Below are positions 18,168 through 24,081 of a stretch of 39,479 nucleotides of DNA, piece after piece. Origin of the DNA: Methanosphaera sp. (GTDB lineage Archaea > Methanobacteriota > Methanobacteria > Methanobacteriales > Methanobacteriaceae); contig JAFRMD010000017.1 of the NCBI GenBank assembly GCA_017430835.1, forward strand, positions 1 to 39,479, read 5' to 3'. Position numbers and translations under genes: made by a program. Positions within the stretch are counted from its first letter, which is position 1. Each line of letters begins with the position of its first letter. Under the pieces are notes generated by a model. The model was not told the DNA's origin. It saw only the letters and a program-made list of their open reading frames with translations, and did no database searches.

Positions 18168-18243
18168 GAAAAAATTATAAAAACAGAATATAAAATCTCA
18201 ATAAGAATTATTTTAATATCAACAAAAAAAACTGGTGAAAATC

Positions 18244-19581
18244 ATGTCAGAACGAGATGACAAAATAGATGATGTAATAAAACAGATAGACGAATCAGGA
18301 GCAAAATTTTTAAGACTACAATTTTCAGATATCCATGGTACCCCAAAAAGCATGGCAGTATCACTAAAAAAAGCTGACGATGCAGAAGATGTCATAAACG
18401 ATGGATTGTTATTTGACGGTTCTTCAGTACCGGGATTTACTGATATCAATAACAGTGACCTGGCATTGAAACCAGATCTGGATACATTCTCAGCACTACC
18501 ATGGAGACCAGAAGATAAAGGAACATGCAGATTTATCTGTGACGTCTACAATACTGATGGAACACACTTTGAAGGAGATCCAAGGGGAGTACTAAAAAAA
18601 TCATTAAAAAAAGCAGAAGAACGAGGATATCAATTCAATATGGGACCGGAACCGGAATTCTTCATCATAGAAAAAGATGAATTTGGCCAATATAAACCGG
18701 CAGACAAAGCTGACTACTTTGACGTAGAACCATTAGACAAAGGAACAGATATAAGAAGGGAAATCGTATTAGGACTTGAAAAACTGGACTTCAACATAGA
18801 GGTAAGCCACCACGAAGTAGCACCAGGACAACATGAAATAGACTTCAGATTTGCAGACGCACTAAAAACAGCAGATGCAGTAATCACATTCAAACAGGCA
18901 ATCAAAGCATTGGTAGATAAACTAGGTTATCACGTAACATTCATGCCAAAACCATTCTTCGGTGTAAACGGTAGTGGAATGCACTGTAACCAGAGTCTAT
19001 TTAAAGACGGCAAAAACATATTCTATGACCCAGATACAGAAACACAATTATCACAGGAAGCAATGTATTTCATCGGTGGATTACTAGAACATGCACCAGC
19101 ACTGTCAGCTATACTTAGTCCAACAGTAAACTCATATAAAAGATTAGTACCAGGATACGAAGCACCATGCTACATAGCATATGGACTTAAAAACAGATCA
19201 ACACTACTAAGAATTCCAGCATCACGTGGAATCGGAACAAGAATCGAATGCAGATCAGCAGACCCATCATGTAACCCTTACCTGGCATTTGCAGTATTAC
19301 TAGAAGCAGGACTTGATGGTATGGACAATAAAATGGATCCAGGAGAACCAACAGAATTCAACGCATTCGAGTATACTCCAGAAGAACTGGCAAATAAAGG
19401 AATAAATACACTACCTACAAGCTTATGGGAAGCATACCATGCATTGGAAGAAGACAATATAGTTAAAAATGCACTGGGTGACTTTGTATACAACCAATTC
19501 TATCAAATCAAACGTCAGGAATGGGATGACTACAGAATACAGGTATTCGACTATGAACGTGAAAGATACCTGAACATATAA
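18244..19581 (+). CDS. glnA: glutamine synthetase type I
   Basis: Forms glutamine from glutamate, ammonia and ATP in the cytosol. I choose ATG 18244, seven to nine bases after GGTGA, giving 445 residues; an in-frame GTG at 18235 lies inside that ribosome site. Family marks include [25 protein letters not shown] (metal Glu), [35 protein letters not shown], and the ATP/phosphate region [20 protein letters not shown]. Length fits the I-alpha class without the adenylylation loop. Expression is probably controlled by NrpR through the operator at 18154. The product feeds the convergent glutamate synthase operon, together making a GS-GOGAT pathway. Confidence 0.97.
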
Positions 19582-19903: not shown

Positions 19904-21394
19904 CTATCTGAATCCTTTTCTTACCAGTGGGACACCAGTAATGTGAGATGCTTCCATTGTTAATGAAACCAAATCCTCTTTCTCCAATTTCTGTATGTCG
20001 GTATTACCCGCCTGTTGGGTTAACATCTTTGCCTCTTCAGTCATTACCTTAATGTAATTTGCAACATGTTCTCCACCCCTGACGGGATCCAATCTACGTC
20101 TGAATAATCTATTCTGTGTTGCAATACCTTTAGGACATGTTCCCTTACTACAACCCTGACAAACCTTACAACCCAGTGATATCAAAGCAGCAGTTCCAAT
20201 ATAAGCCGCATCCGCACCCAATGCTATGGCCTTAGCCACATCAGCTCCTGAACGAATACCCCCCGCTGCAACAAGACTTACCTCTTCTCTTAGATTTATT
20301 TCCCTAAGTGTTTCATCAGCTTCAAGAATAGCCTGTATAGTAGGAATACCAGAGTGCTCCGTTACAACCTCAGGTCCTGCACCAGTTCCACCCTGCATAC
20401 CGTCAACGACTATAATATCGGCTCCTGCCTTAGCAGCAATTTTAACGTCCTGTTCTACACGGCCCGACGTAAATTTAACCATAATAGGTATTTTCCAATC
20501 TGTAATGTCACGCAGCTGATTGATTTTTAATCTCAAATCCTCCGGACCCACAATATCCATATGTCTGGCAGGACTTAATGCATTGGTACCCTTAGGAATG
20601 TTTCTAATCTTAGCAACCTCTGCAGTAACCTTTTCAGCCAGTAAATGACCACCCATACCAGCCTTTGAACCTTGACCAATCTTGATTTCAATTGCATCGG
20701 CGTTATTCAAGTAATTGGCTGATACTCCAAATCTACCTGATGCATATTGGGCAATAAGCTTATCTGCATAATGTCTTTCTTCAGGAAGCATTCCACCTTC
20801 ACCTGTATTTGTTATAGTTCCGGCAAGCTTAGAACCCCGTGCCAATGCTATTTTTGCTTCCTTACTGATAGCACCAAATGACATAGCTCCTATCATTATA
20901 GGTGTGGATATCTTTATAGGATTTTCGGCAAATCTGTCACCCAATACGACCTCAGAGTTACATGGCTCCCTGTATTTATCTATTGGAGGCCTTGATACCT
21001 GAGCAGGAAGTATGGTTAAATCATCAAATGATGGGACATGCCTGATTGCTCCACATCCTCTTACCTTGTATGATCCTTCGATGGATTTACGTTTAATTTC
21101 AAGCATCGTGTAATTGGACCATATTCCTCTATGTTCATCCGGCAATGGCGTTACATATATGGCATTATTTGGACACATCTCTTCACATATCTTACATCCA
21201 ACACATTTTTCCTGGTGGACAGGTTGTGGCTCATCATTTATTATCTCATATACGCCATGGGGACAATTACTGTAACAGCTATAGCAATTTTTACATAATG
21301 ACTGTTTAGGATTGTCACATAAATACCAACAACATCCAGGCCGGTTGTTGTTTCGTTTACATATTTCTGATCTTCGGTTAACGTCAAATGGCAT
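19904..21394 (-). CDS. glutamate synthase, ferredoxin plus FMN synthase domain subunit
   Basis: The protein has 496 residues. The N-terminal 90 residues carry two Fe-S clusters (CKNCYSCYSNCP and CVGCKICEEMCP). The rest is the alpha/beta-barrel synthase domain of GltB: KISTPIMIGAMSFGAISKEA, GEGGMLPEERH, KIGQGSKAGMGGHL, VVDGMQGGTGAGP, ending in GCKVCQGCSKGTCPKGI, which has the three cysteines of the 3Fe-4S centre. It joins ammonia to 2-oxoglutarate and reduces it to glutamate. It corresponds to archaeal-type GltB lacking the amidotransferase and GXGXG parts, which are encoded upstream in the same operon. Its ATG directly follows the stop of the FrhB-like gene; AAGGAGGATGTG is the ribosome site. 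Confidence 0.93.
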   Translation of the reverse strand: MPFDVNRRSEICKRNNNRPGCCWYLCDNPKQSLCKNCYSCYSNCPHGVYEIINDEPQPVHQEKCVGCKICEEMCPNNAIYVTPLPDEHRGIWSNYTMLEIKRKSIEGSYKVRGCGAIRHVPSFDDLTILPAQVSRPPIDKYREPCNSEVVLGDRFAENPIKISTPIMIGAMSFGAISKEAKIALARGSKLAGTITNTGEGGMLPEERHYADKLIAQYASGRFGVSANYLNNADAIEIKIGQGSKAGMGGHLLAEKVTAEVAKIRNIPKGTNALSPARHMDIVGPEDLRLKINQLRDITDWKIPIMVKFTSGRVEQDVKIAAKAGADIIVVDGMQGGTGAGPEVVTEHSGIPTIQAILEADETLREINLREEVSLVAAGGIRSGADVAKAIALGADAAYIGTAALISLGCKVCQGCSKGTCPKGIATQNRLFRRRLDPVRGGEHVANYIKVMTEEAKMLTQQAGNTDIQKLEKEDLVSLTMEASHITGVPLVRKGFR

Positions 21395-22471
21395 TTAGAT
21401 CACATCCTCCTTTAATTGTTTTAATGGTTTGAATATTGGACATACGGAGTACTTTGTTCCTGAAGCTTTAACTATTTCATCTATATCCTTGGTTAGTTTA
21501 GCATAAGGTTTCCATGACAGGTCCTCTTTTTTATCAACAATAAGGGCTTGATTAACTATACCTTTTGTTATGAGATAATCAAGTATTGTAGTAACCACTA
21601 CTCCATCCTGACCTTTATTGTGTTTTAATGATTTTACAGTTAGAATTTTCTTATAATCACCTATTGATTTTTTCAGGTCATTTCTTAAATTAACAGGTGC
21701 AAATGTCCTTGGACATACTGCAAAGCAGTTATGACAATCAGGAGGACATTCTTTTCGTTTCTTTCGTGGCTTTGTATTTTTTATGAGTATCAATTCCTCA
21801 GGACATACATATTCACATGCTCCGCATAGTACACATGCTCCTACATTTATCACATTTGCCCTCAGGTCGTCAAAGTTTGATTCTGATATTTCCTCCATAA
21901 TATTCTCATCAGTCTTGTCTCTTTGATATAATACCGGGCGTGCCTTTGCTTCACGTTCTTCTATATTTTCATGATTTGCTTTCTTCTTATTTGATGCTAT
22001 ACGTTCCAATAGTTTAAGTTGGGATGGTGTTAATTCCTTGGCCTTAATGTATTTGTGTTTTATAGCATCTTTTATGATTTTTTCTCCCTTATCTGTTCTT
22101 ACTATTACCGTTGACCATCCGTTTTCTGATCCTATGGAACCTACTGATATGTCTGATGTTTCCGATGTCAGCTCTACACAGATATTGCAGTTTTTTCTTA
22201 CAACGGTTTTTGCCTTTGATAATGAAATTTTTACCTGGTCTCCATTTTTCAGGTTAAAGAATGCATATCCTTTTTCTATTCTGAATTTTTCAATGTCATC
22301 CATAGTCAAATCTAATTCTTTTAACAGTTTTGTGAAGTATAGATAGGAGAAGTTTTCCATACAGAATAAACCTATTTTAAAGTATATTGGACTGTCTGTA
22401 TAATGCTGTATTTTTGAGGCAGCCATTATTCCACAGGGAGTTCCTACCATAGCTATTTTTCCTTTTGACAT
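21395..22471 (-). CDS. circularly permuted FrhB-like (F420-dehydrogenase) subunit with ferredoxin module
   Basis: I place the start at ATG 22471, five bases after GGAGTGA; GTG 22480 overlaps that site. The protein has 358 residues. Residues 1-150 match the C-terminal half of FrhB/FpoF proteins (IAMVGTPCGIMAASKIQHY, GLFCMENFSY, KNCNICVELTSETSDISVGS, GWSTVIVRTDKGEKII). Residues about 205-265 hold two Fe-S motifs (CVLCGACEYVCPEE and CPPDCHNCFAVCPR). Residues about 285-358 match the N-terminal half of FrhB (GQDGVVVTTILDYLITKGIV, WKPYAKLTKDIDEIVKASGT, KYSVCP). FrhB binds FAD, F420 and a 4Fe-4S cluster. Here it probably feeds electrons to the synthase in place of GltD; the donor F420H2 is inferred. 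Confidence 0.85.
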   Translation of the reverse strand: MSKGKIAMVGTPCGIMAASKIQHYTDSPIYFKIGLFCMENFSYLYFTKLLKELDLTMDDIEKFRIEKGYAFFNLKNGDQVKISLSKAKTVVRKNCNICVELTSETSDISVGSIGSENGWSTVIVRTDKGEKIIKDAIKHKYIKAKELTPSQLKLLERIASNKKKANHENIEEREAKARPVLYQRDKTDENIMEEISESNFDDLRANVINVGACVLCGACEYVCPEELILIKNTKPRKKRKECPPDCHNCFAVCPRTFAPVNLRNDLKKSIGDYKKILTVKSLKHNKGQDGVVVTTILDYLITKGIVNQALIVDKKEDLSWKPYAKLTKDIDEIVKASGTKYSVCPIFKPLKQLKEDVI

Positions 22472-22476
22472 CTTTT

Positions 22477-23148
22477 TCACTCCATTAAGTGGTTATTGGA
22501 TTTGTTTGTAATCTTTTTGAAGTTTGTATAATCTATATCGGTTATTTCAAATCCATATTTTGTTAGTAATCTTTTCAACTCTTTTTGATCTTCTAGTGTG
22601 GATTGTTCCATTTTTGCATTTTTTCCAAGGCTTTTTACATCTCCGAGTACGTATATTGTTCCACGCATGATGGATTCACCGGCATCATCTGTTACGTTTC
22701 CCAGTACTATCAGTCGACCACCCATCATTAATAGTCCGGTCATGAAACCGCTGTTTCCACCGATTATTACTGTTCCTCCTTTCATGATTTCTCCGGTACG
22801 TGAACCTGCATCACCTTTTATGACTACTGTTCCTCCATATATTCCTTGGCCTGCTCCATCACCTACTCCACCTTCGATGATTAATTCGCCACGGGTCATG
22901 TTGTCTCCTGCAAACCATCCGGCGTTTCTTTTGATATGTATTTTTGGACCGTCTATCATTGTTCCAACAAAATATCCTGCTGATCCATCTATTTCTATTT
23001 CCACTTCTTCGGTTACACCTGCAGCAATGTTATGTCTTGATTGTGGATTTTTAATTATTAGTTTATCATAATTTACTGCATGTTCCTTTATTGAACGATT
23101 CAATTCTTTTTCGTCCATATCTTCAGCATCAATTATATATTTACTCAT
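22477..23148 (-). CDS. glutamate synthase GXGXG-domain subunit
   Basis: I choose ATG 23148 (after GAAGTGA) rather than the in-frame GTG at 23157, giving 223 residues. The centre is a right-handed beta-helix of G-rich turns: GYFVGTMIDGPKIHIKRNAG, GELIIEGGVGDGAGQGIYGG, GDAGSRTGEIMKGGTVIIGG, GGRLIVLGNVTDDAGESIMR. It corresponds to the C-terminal domain of large GltB, which shapes the ammonia channel and holds the subunits together; it is also related to formylmethanofuran dehydrogenase subunit C. It lies between the amidotransferase and the FrhB-like gene; GGAGTGA spanning its stop serves the next gene. Confidence 0.9.
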   Translation of the reverse strand: MSKYIIDAEDMDEKELNRSIKEHAVNYDKLIIKNPQSRHNIAAGVTEEVEIEIDGSAGYFVGTMIDGPKIHIKRNAGWFAGDNMTRGELIIEGGVGDGAGQGIYGGTVVIKGDAGSRTGEIMKGGTVIIGGNSGFMTGLLMMGGRLIVLGNVTDDAGESIMRGTIYVLGDVKSLGKNAKMEQSTLEDQKELKRLLTKYGFEITDIDYTNFKKITNKSNNHLME

Positions 23149-23163
23149 ATTATTCACTTCTTT

Positions 23164-24081
23164 TTATATGGTGTATGACCTGGTTTCTCCTGGTGCTATT
23201 TGTTCTACCTGATTTGTATCCAGTACGTCCTGCAGTGACATTTCCTCTGATGCTATTGCAAATACGTCATCATTTTCTGCCATTACTCCTGGTCTTAGTC
23301 CTAGTTTGTCTTTTGCTATTCCTATTCCATTTGGTGTTCCTACAAGTATTGAAAATGGGCCATCCAAATCCTTTACTGCTTCTTCAAGGGTTTCTTCCAG
23401 TTTGTATCCGTGGGATAGTTTTTCTGCTATGTAGTGTACTATGCATTCTGTGTCGTTTAATGTTTTGAATTCGTGACCTTTTCTTTCGAGAGGGTCTCTT
23501 ATTTTCCAGTAGTTTGTGATTTGTCCGTTATGTACTACGGTTATGTCGGGTGTTATGTAGCTTTGATATGGGTGTGCATGGTATCGGTCTATTCCGCTTT
23601 CTGTTGCAAATCGTGTATGTCCTATTCCATGTGTTCCTTTTCTTTTGGGTACGTTGTATCTTTTTGCTATGTCCTTTACTTTTCCTATGTCTTTTATCAT
23701 TTCAAATGAGTGTGATCCGTTTATTACTTGGATGTCTTCTATTTCATCCAGATTTTGAATTAATGGCTTTAACATGGAATATTCTTTGAGTTTTATTTCA
23801 CAACGGTATACATTATGTTTTTGGTCTGATTTGATTAGTTCTTCATTATATATTGAACTTGTTTCTTTGATTGTTGTTTTTAGTTTGTCTAATATTTCTT
23901 GTTCGTTTTTTACTTCTACATTTAATTGGTAGTTGTTTTTTGGTAGATTTAATCCACCATATATGGCAAATCCTGCTGAATCCGGTCCTCTGTGTTGTAG
24001 GGATTCCAGCATTGATGTTAATGATTTTCCAACATTGTGTGTTTTTTTATCTTTATATATTACTCCTGCTATTCCACACAT
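23164..24081 (-). CDS. glutamate synthase amidotransferase subunit (class II glutamine amidotransferase)
   Basis: The protein has 305 residues. MCGIAGVIYKDKK puts Cys2 as the N-terminal nucleophile after Met removal. LQHRGPDSAGFAIYGG, GIGHTRFATESG, VVHNGQITNYW and LNDTECIVHYIAEKL are the substrate-binding and structural motifs of the class II (Ntn) amidotransferases; DGPFSILVGTPNGIGIAKDK and LRPG follow. It hydrolyses glutamine and passes ammonia to the FMN subunit. It is the first gene of the glt operon. The ATG follows GAGGTATAAAAAA. Two NrpR-type operators lie upstream. Confidence 0.92.
   Translation of the reverse strand: MCGIAGVIYKDKKTHNVGKSLTSMLESLQHRGPDSAGFAIYGGLNLPKNNYQLNVEVKNEQEILDKLKTTIKETSSIYNEELIKSDQKHNVYRCEIKLKEYSMLKPLIQNLDEIEDIQVINGSHSFEMIKDIGKVKDIAKRYNVPKRKGTHGIGHTRFATESGIDRYHAHPYQSYITPDITVVHNGQITNYWKIRDPLERKGHEFKTLNDTECIVHYIAEKLSHGYKLEETLEEAVKDLDGPFSILVGTPNGIGIAKDKLGLRPGVMAENDDVFAIASEEMSLQDVLDTNQVEQIAPGETRSYTI

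Follow-up and report, generated by a model that had tools for sequence, protein, structure and literature searches.

Glutamate synthase (GOGAT) forms 2-iminoglutarate from 2-oxoglutarate and ammonia and reduces it to glutamate. The bacterial enzyme, GltBD, has Glu_synthase, GXGXG and amidotransferase functions. For the glutamate synthase of methanogens, F420H2 has been proposed as the electron donor since at least 2011. The proposal of an F420-dependent GOGAT is found in PMC3087415, where it 'remains to be proven', and in PMC3448663, a part of which names two forms, FGltS(I) and FGltS(II), and assigns to FGltS(II) a subunit homologous to FdhB; trees in the same part place FGltS(II)-alpha with FrhB and FGltS(I)-alpha with Fpo/FqoF. 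The word stem 'permut' is absent from the main text of that paper. A circular permutation was stated in the eLife paper on Frh, in the legend of its Fig. 9, for the 'F420-dependent glutamate synthase' of M. marburgensis (PMC3591093, 2013). In passages of later papers, FGltS(I) is again called putative (PMC9295563), and the F420-dependent glutamate synthase was still 'putative' in July 2026 (PMC13381448). The literature searched, a set outside which most subscription journals lie, contained neither biochemical proof of an F420H2-dependent GOGAT nor a further description of the permutation. Both ideas are already in print, the donor since 2011-2012 and the permutation since 2013, and the novelty that the original prediction had attached to the permutation falls away with that Fig. 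9 legend.

Several described systems share parts with the protein encoded in the window, by which we mean the whole 39,479-nucleotide stretch of Methanosphaera sp. DNA that was analysed. FrhB of the F420-reducing hydrogenase differs from it in having the N-C order and no ferredoxin (Fd) module of its own, that module being in FrhG. The F420 reductase subunits of the ethanotroph CODH and formylmethanofuran dehydrogenase (8riu_B, 8rja_E) have, in the sections of PMC11493965 that describe them, the same three modules as the window protein, but in the unpermuted order Fd-N-C and with other enzyme partners. FGltS(I) is like the window system in its proposed feed of F420H2 to GOGAT, whereas its subunit appears in a part of PMC3448663 as unpermuted and Fsr-N-like, i.e., with Fd at the N-terminus. 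In ANME, FrhB paralogues share clusters with genes for PFOR, CODH and glutamate synthase, according to a passage of PMC9012536. The M. marburgensis subunit has the same swapped order as the window protein (window residues 273-355, 83 in all, and 8-182), as PMC3591093 gives it in the legend of its Fig. 9; the likeness is drawn from this published description, and the subunit is from a genus other than that of the window, whose nearest named relatives are Methanosphaera. The Methanothermobacter marburgensis protein ADL58239, MTBMA_c06440/MTH193 and FGltS(II)-alpha are probably one protein.

The operon and its permuted subunit

Four tightly packed genes on the minus strand of the window encode an amidotransferase, a GXGXG subunit, a permuted FrhB and an Fd-FMN synthase core, as read from the open reading frames and Pfam. 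The first gene specifies a glutamine amidotransferase subunit of 305 aa (23164..24081; GATase_7 and GATase_6, E 4.8e-18 and 5.6e-17), the second a GXGXG-domain subunit of 226 aa (22477..23157; PF01493, E 3e-29), and the third the permuted FrhB-type subunit of 361 aa, composed of a C-half, a ferredoxin module and an N-half in that order (21395..22480; ORF, Pfam, phmmer and AlphaFold2). Directly 3' of the permuted gene lies that of the glutamate synthase core (19904..21394, 496 aa; PF01645, E 1.3e-129), to whose N-terminus 4Fe-4S models match in two stretches (Fer4, E 1.9e-08). These models (GATase_7/6, GXGXG, Glu_synthase plus 4Fe-4S) bear out the operon partners named in the original prediction. 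Its limits for the permuted gene, 21395..22471, agree with the ORF at the stop; at the other end the ORF opens with a GTG at 22480, and 22471 is an alternative ATG start three codons in. A glutamine synthetase gene on the plus strand (18235..19581; PF00120, E 1.1e-135), convergent with the operon, represents the other half of GS/GOGAT and gives the operon its context. With a permuted FrhB/FdhB-like subunit inside an archaeal GOGAT operon, the window enzyme is the one that others call F420-dependent glutamate synthase or FGltS(II).

Within the permuted subunit, Pfam places FrhB_FdhB_C at residues 8-151 (22028..22459, minus strand; PF04432, E 2e-44, 151.5 bits against a cut-off of 23.3), the ferredoxin module at residues 210-259 (21704..21853, minus strand; Fer4 over its cut-off, Fer4_17 at its cut-off and other Fer4 models below theirs) and FrhB_FdhB_N at residues 287-354 (21419..21622, minus strand; PF04422, E 8e-17, 61.5 bits against a cut-off of 22). 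With both halves over cut-off the protein belongs to the FrhB/FdhB family; in its C-Fd-N order it reaches 177.2 bits with the FrhB equivalog TIGR03289, below the cut-off of 331.5. Among PDB chains, the best phmmer matches are to 8riu_B (E 5e-50) and 8rja_E (E 6e-44), both Fd-N-C, in which the Fd and N parts match query residues 202-350/358 as one piece. The match to 8riu_B consists of query 202-350 on chain residues 8-164 and query 8-185 on 177-357, and that to FrhB (3zfs_C) of query 273-355 on 3-87 and query 8-182 on 96-278. Because the halves match the PDB chains separately and in swapped order, the window protein is a circular permutation of an Fd-N-C protein, and the limits of the 3zfs_C match put the cut between FrhB residues 87 and 96, in the short linker between the N- and C-halves. 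The FrhB halves are thus exchanged and the break falls at the domain junction, both as predicted.

A decayed gene, or an assembly or frame error, would be another reading of the unusual order; no support for it was found, and we regard its probability as negligible. The frame is open, the cofactor sites named below are conserved, and the AlphaFold2 model of the subunit is confident (pLDDT 90.2, pTM 0.91). A near-full-length match with the C-Fd-N order was present in 34/41 genomes of the first genome search, and the same order in 216 of the 240 database matches listed (120/120 in the first search, the best 120 of 1394, and 96/120 in the second, the best 120 of 244); these counts rule out an artefact or frameshift. 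The nearest genome, G001, has a protein 99% identical to the window's, and the closest named relatives among the matches listed are Methanosphaera proteins (about 86%, and 85% or lower in a second search). Two structure aligners, both bound to sequence order, matched essentially the C-half of the model, two FdhB-type chains being matched over residues 1/2-266. Residues 187-361 modelled alone gave a weaker model (pLDDT 80.2, pTM 0.52) with poor rmsd to Fd-N chains (about 9-12 Å), and the matches of this model back the residue correspondence rather than a fine fit.

Residue mapping locates the cofactor sites of FrhB in the permuted protein. The [4Fe-4S] ligands Cys104, 134, 192 and 195 of FrhB are Cys16, 40, 98 and 101 in the window protein and are kept in 58/58 permuted rows, and the ferredoxin module has eight cysteines (Cys216/219/222/226 and Cys245/249/252/256). 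In the N-half, the FAD pyrophosphate helix starts at Asp292-Gly293, and the FAD loop Lys75-Tyr76 of FrhB becomes Lys343-Tyr344, with Tyr kept in 58/58 and Lys in 15/58 permuted rows. The F420-site regions lie in the C-half at residues 68-72 and 115-116. FrhB Ser209-Val210 corresponds to Ser115-Ile116, kept or similar, and the loop 163-IGKGK reads I-E-K-G-Y, Gly164 being replaced by Glu69 and the second Lys (Lys167) by Tyr72. The FAD and Fe-S sites and most positions of the F420 site are retained; Lys167 and Gly164 are not. These two replacements, and the small share of permuted rows with the FAD-loop Lys, count against F420H2 input through this subunit.

Co-occurrence with the GOGAT core and the source of electrons

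The permuted gene (E <1e-100) and the core (E <1e-170) were counted in 151 genomes of the window's phylum, with scoring confined to the top 13 candidates in each genome for the former and the top 10 for the latter. The permuted gene is found in 123 of them: 119 have both genes and 21 neither, seven have the core only, and four, all 63-80% complete, the permuted gene only. Among the core-only genomes, G066, G146 and G174 have contig-edge fragments that were taken as the permuted gene, and in G091 the core is at a contig start. When only near-complete genomes are considered (completeness ≥90%, contamination ≤5%), the permuted gene is present in 81 of 84 with the core (83 of 84 counting fragments) and in 0 of 7 without it; these are raw counts that ignore kinship.

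In 31 genomes, many of them draft assemblies, the two genes are separated by a long distance or assigned to different contigs, as read by eye from the tables; this number leaves out G115 and G134, whose separation may stem from a contig break. They share a contig at a distance in G074 (about 0.25 Mb, if the contig is circular), G098 (0.25 Mb) and G103 (0.22 Mb). In the four split genomes examined around the core (G074, G021, G126 and G103) the amidotransferase, GXGXG and core genes stay together, and the permuted gene is missing there and present elsewhere. Co-occurrence in split genomes is the more telling, because adjacent genes are lost together anyway, even without a functional link. Since the permuted gene lies away from the core in the 31 genomes, it may serve other partners. 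In G022 (L076:350-3325), a GOGAT-type permuted FrhB gene has no linkage to GOGAT; thiG and a radical SAM/BATS gene come after it on the same strand. G009 (L172:3439-5370) has a second, shorter GOGAT-like pair, formed by a GXGXG gene and a gene for a core-like protein of 415 aa from which residues 1-90 of the window's core are missing.

Two genomes keep amidotransferase-GXGXG-core and have no permuted FrhB, G024 (99% complete; L160:4151-7319), even with all candidates scored, and G131 (87% complete). The core can therefore exist without the permuted subunit, which argues against an obligate role, and ferredoxin could feed the core directly because the core has its own 4Fe-4S domain. It is conceivable, but in our view unlikely, that the core is ferredoxin-dependent in vivo and that the permuted FrhB acts as an accessory module of the F420H2:ferredoxin type or as a loose link to the pool rather than as an obligate subunit. 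The 4Fe-4S domain of the core, G024 and the 31 split genomes are in line with such an arrangement, whereas the co-occurrence in near-complete genomes (81-83/84 against 0/7) and the position of the permuted gene between GXGXG and core in the window, L156 and L157 speak against it. Less likely again, and improbable overall, is a free-standing F420 oxidoreductase with another enzyme as its main partner, which would owe its place in the operon to shared regulation only. Permuted homologues beside PFOR, Mtd and Nap-type genes elsewhere, and the neighbours of the gene in G022, would suit this; within the window's phylum, however, the distribution of the permuted gene tracks the GOGAT core, and the GOGAT-type rows form one tree group (92/100 support).

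No GltD is present among the operon's ORFs (ORF list and Pfam), as the original prediction had it, and TIGR01316 is over its cut-off in 0/47 genomes of the phylum, in a search whose controls worked. The window system thus has the Glu_synthase, GXGXG and amidotransferase domains in common with bacterial GltBD and differs from it in that the parts are separate genes and GltD, the NADPH subunit, is over cut-off in none of these 47 relatives. Sub-cut-off matches to TIGR01316 occur in 39/47 genomes, mostly in frames of about 300-340 aa, which by their length are probably thioredoxin reductases, with five of 483-490 aa. Supply of NADPH via a GltD elsewhere in the genome is not supported by the 0/47 count.

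The reading that we favour, with a probability of roughly 0.8, is that the operon encodes an archaeal-type glutamate synthase in which the circularly permuted Fd-FrhB is the electron-input subunit and F420H2 the donor. Its support consists of the gene order, the domain order, the conserved sites, the confident fold model, the co-occurrence with the core and the lack of a GltD over cut-off; complex formation, cofactor content and F420H2 as the physiological donor are what we infer. FAD bound between the two FrhB halves would accept a hydride from F420H2, and electrons would then pass to the [4Fe-4S] cluster of the C-half (Cys16/40/98/101), to the two clusters of the ferredoxin module, to a further two in the N-terminal part of the synthase core and to FMN. 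There, 2-iminoglutarate, made from 2-oxoglutarate and ammonia released by the amidotransferase, would be reduced to glutamate. The predicted flow from F420H2 to GOGAT is in keeping with the conserved sites and the co-occurrence; its donor retains the standing of a proposal, one that was published in 2011-2012.

Permuted FrhB beside other enzymes

The C-Fd-N order is not peculiar to GOGAT and is also found beside PFOR, Mtd and Nap-type genes. Permuted FrhB is common in the 23 genomes analysed from a second archaeal phylum, probably Hydrothermarchaeota, to judge from the database names of close proteins (Candidatus Pyrohabitan..., Candidatus Hydrot...). Among the 30 matches listed in this phylum, 26 are permuted and four unpermuted. 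Fifteen of the 26 permuted loci are beside porG, nine are beside mtd, and two, on short contig stretches, have no called neighbour; porG and mtd were called by similarity to Pfam-checked genes. At three loci of the phylum (L074:3939-7054, L138:4339-8444 and L144:2093-6139), permuted FrhB is directly followed by genes for PFOR gamma, delta and alpha, with a beta gene as well in L144, called by Pfam, and in L138, called by position and length. The PFOR-linked form is possibly part of an F420-coupled pyruvate oxidoreductase. The mtd-linked form has a C-terminal extension, which brings it to about 486 aa, and is encoded next to mtd, the gene for F420-dependent methylene-H4MPT dehydrogenase (L146:5210-7494, L147:2421-4703 and L073:745-3027). 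A third type, with at least five matches (three examined: L148:812-8358, L149 and L150), belongs to an operon that also encodes a molybdopterin oxidoreductase, multi-4Fe-4S proteins, NapD and a multihaem cytochrome. NapD has a Pfam model of its own, and NapA, NapG and NapH are presumptive names based on domains and order; the permuted FrhB of this operon may provide F420H2 input to a Nap-type reductase. In G051 (L151), a permuted copy has no called PFOR, mtd or Nap-type neighbour.

A sample of 297 archaeal genomes, in each of which at most six candidates were scored, yielded permuted full-length matches outside the two phyla only in G179 and G195 among the matches listed (E 1e-60 or better); PFOR genes accompany both. 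The one fusion seen, in G195 (L178:5036-6667), is an in-frame continuation of permuted FrhB into PorB, the thiamine diphosphate subunit. Some of the ferredoxin cysteines are gone from the PFOR-linked copy of L074 and from a number of database copies. A portion of PMC6775978 reports por, mtd, nap and F420-reducing hydrogenase beta genes in Hydrothermarchaeota and draws no link between them there; a description of the wider permuted family was not found in the literature searched.

Origin and meaning of the permutation

A quick tree, built from 73 rows thinned by identity, of which 43 are permuted and 30 standard, sets the permuted rows on one side of a branch (SH-aLRT 91). A careful tree of 70 rows, which leaves out three long-branch rows (two standard and one permuted), needs two changes, and one change is found in only 10% of the bootstrap trees. 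The tree of the Fd-N half has two changes, of which the starred branches force only one. Two changes are forced by starred branches in the tree of the C-half, where the permuted group is broken by the long-branched FdhB-like L164 and L166; long-branch attraction is likely in this tree because these two rows are long-branched. A constraint that keeps the permuted rows in one group is not rejected (AU p 0.57) and gives a slightly higher log-likelihood. A single origin of the permutation is the parsimonious, though still putative, reading. In G260, two unpermuted FrhB genes lie in tandem, separated by a stop, and from such a pair duplication and trimming could yield a C(1)-Fd(2)-N(2) gene. At L179:1-1746, unpermuted FrhB genes stand in head-to-tail tandem beside genes that look, by sequence, like heterodisulfide reductase genes; a permuted gene could come from an arrangement of this kind.

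The chances are about even that one ancient permutation gave rise to a portable C-Fd-N F420 module, which was plugged into at least four enzymes across archaeal phyla: GOGAT, PFOR (including the PorB fusion), an Mtd-linked form and a Nap-type reductase operon. If true, pyruvate oxidation in those lineages would be coupled to F420, and the electron input to a Nap-type reductase would be linked to F420H2.

With its conserved four-gene operon, the absence of GltD and the co-occurrence with the core, the system offers a clean test case for the electron donor of GOGAT in methanogens. The core claim is already known and an F420-dependent GOGAT appears likely; the part worth following is the wider permuted family, which, if confirmed, would represent one rearranged F420 module reused across central carbon and nitrogen metabolism.
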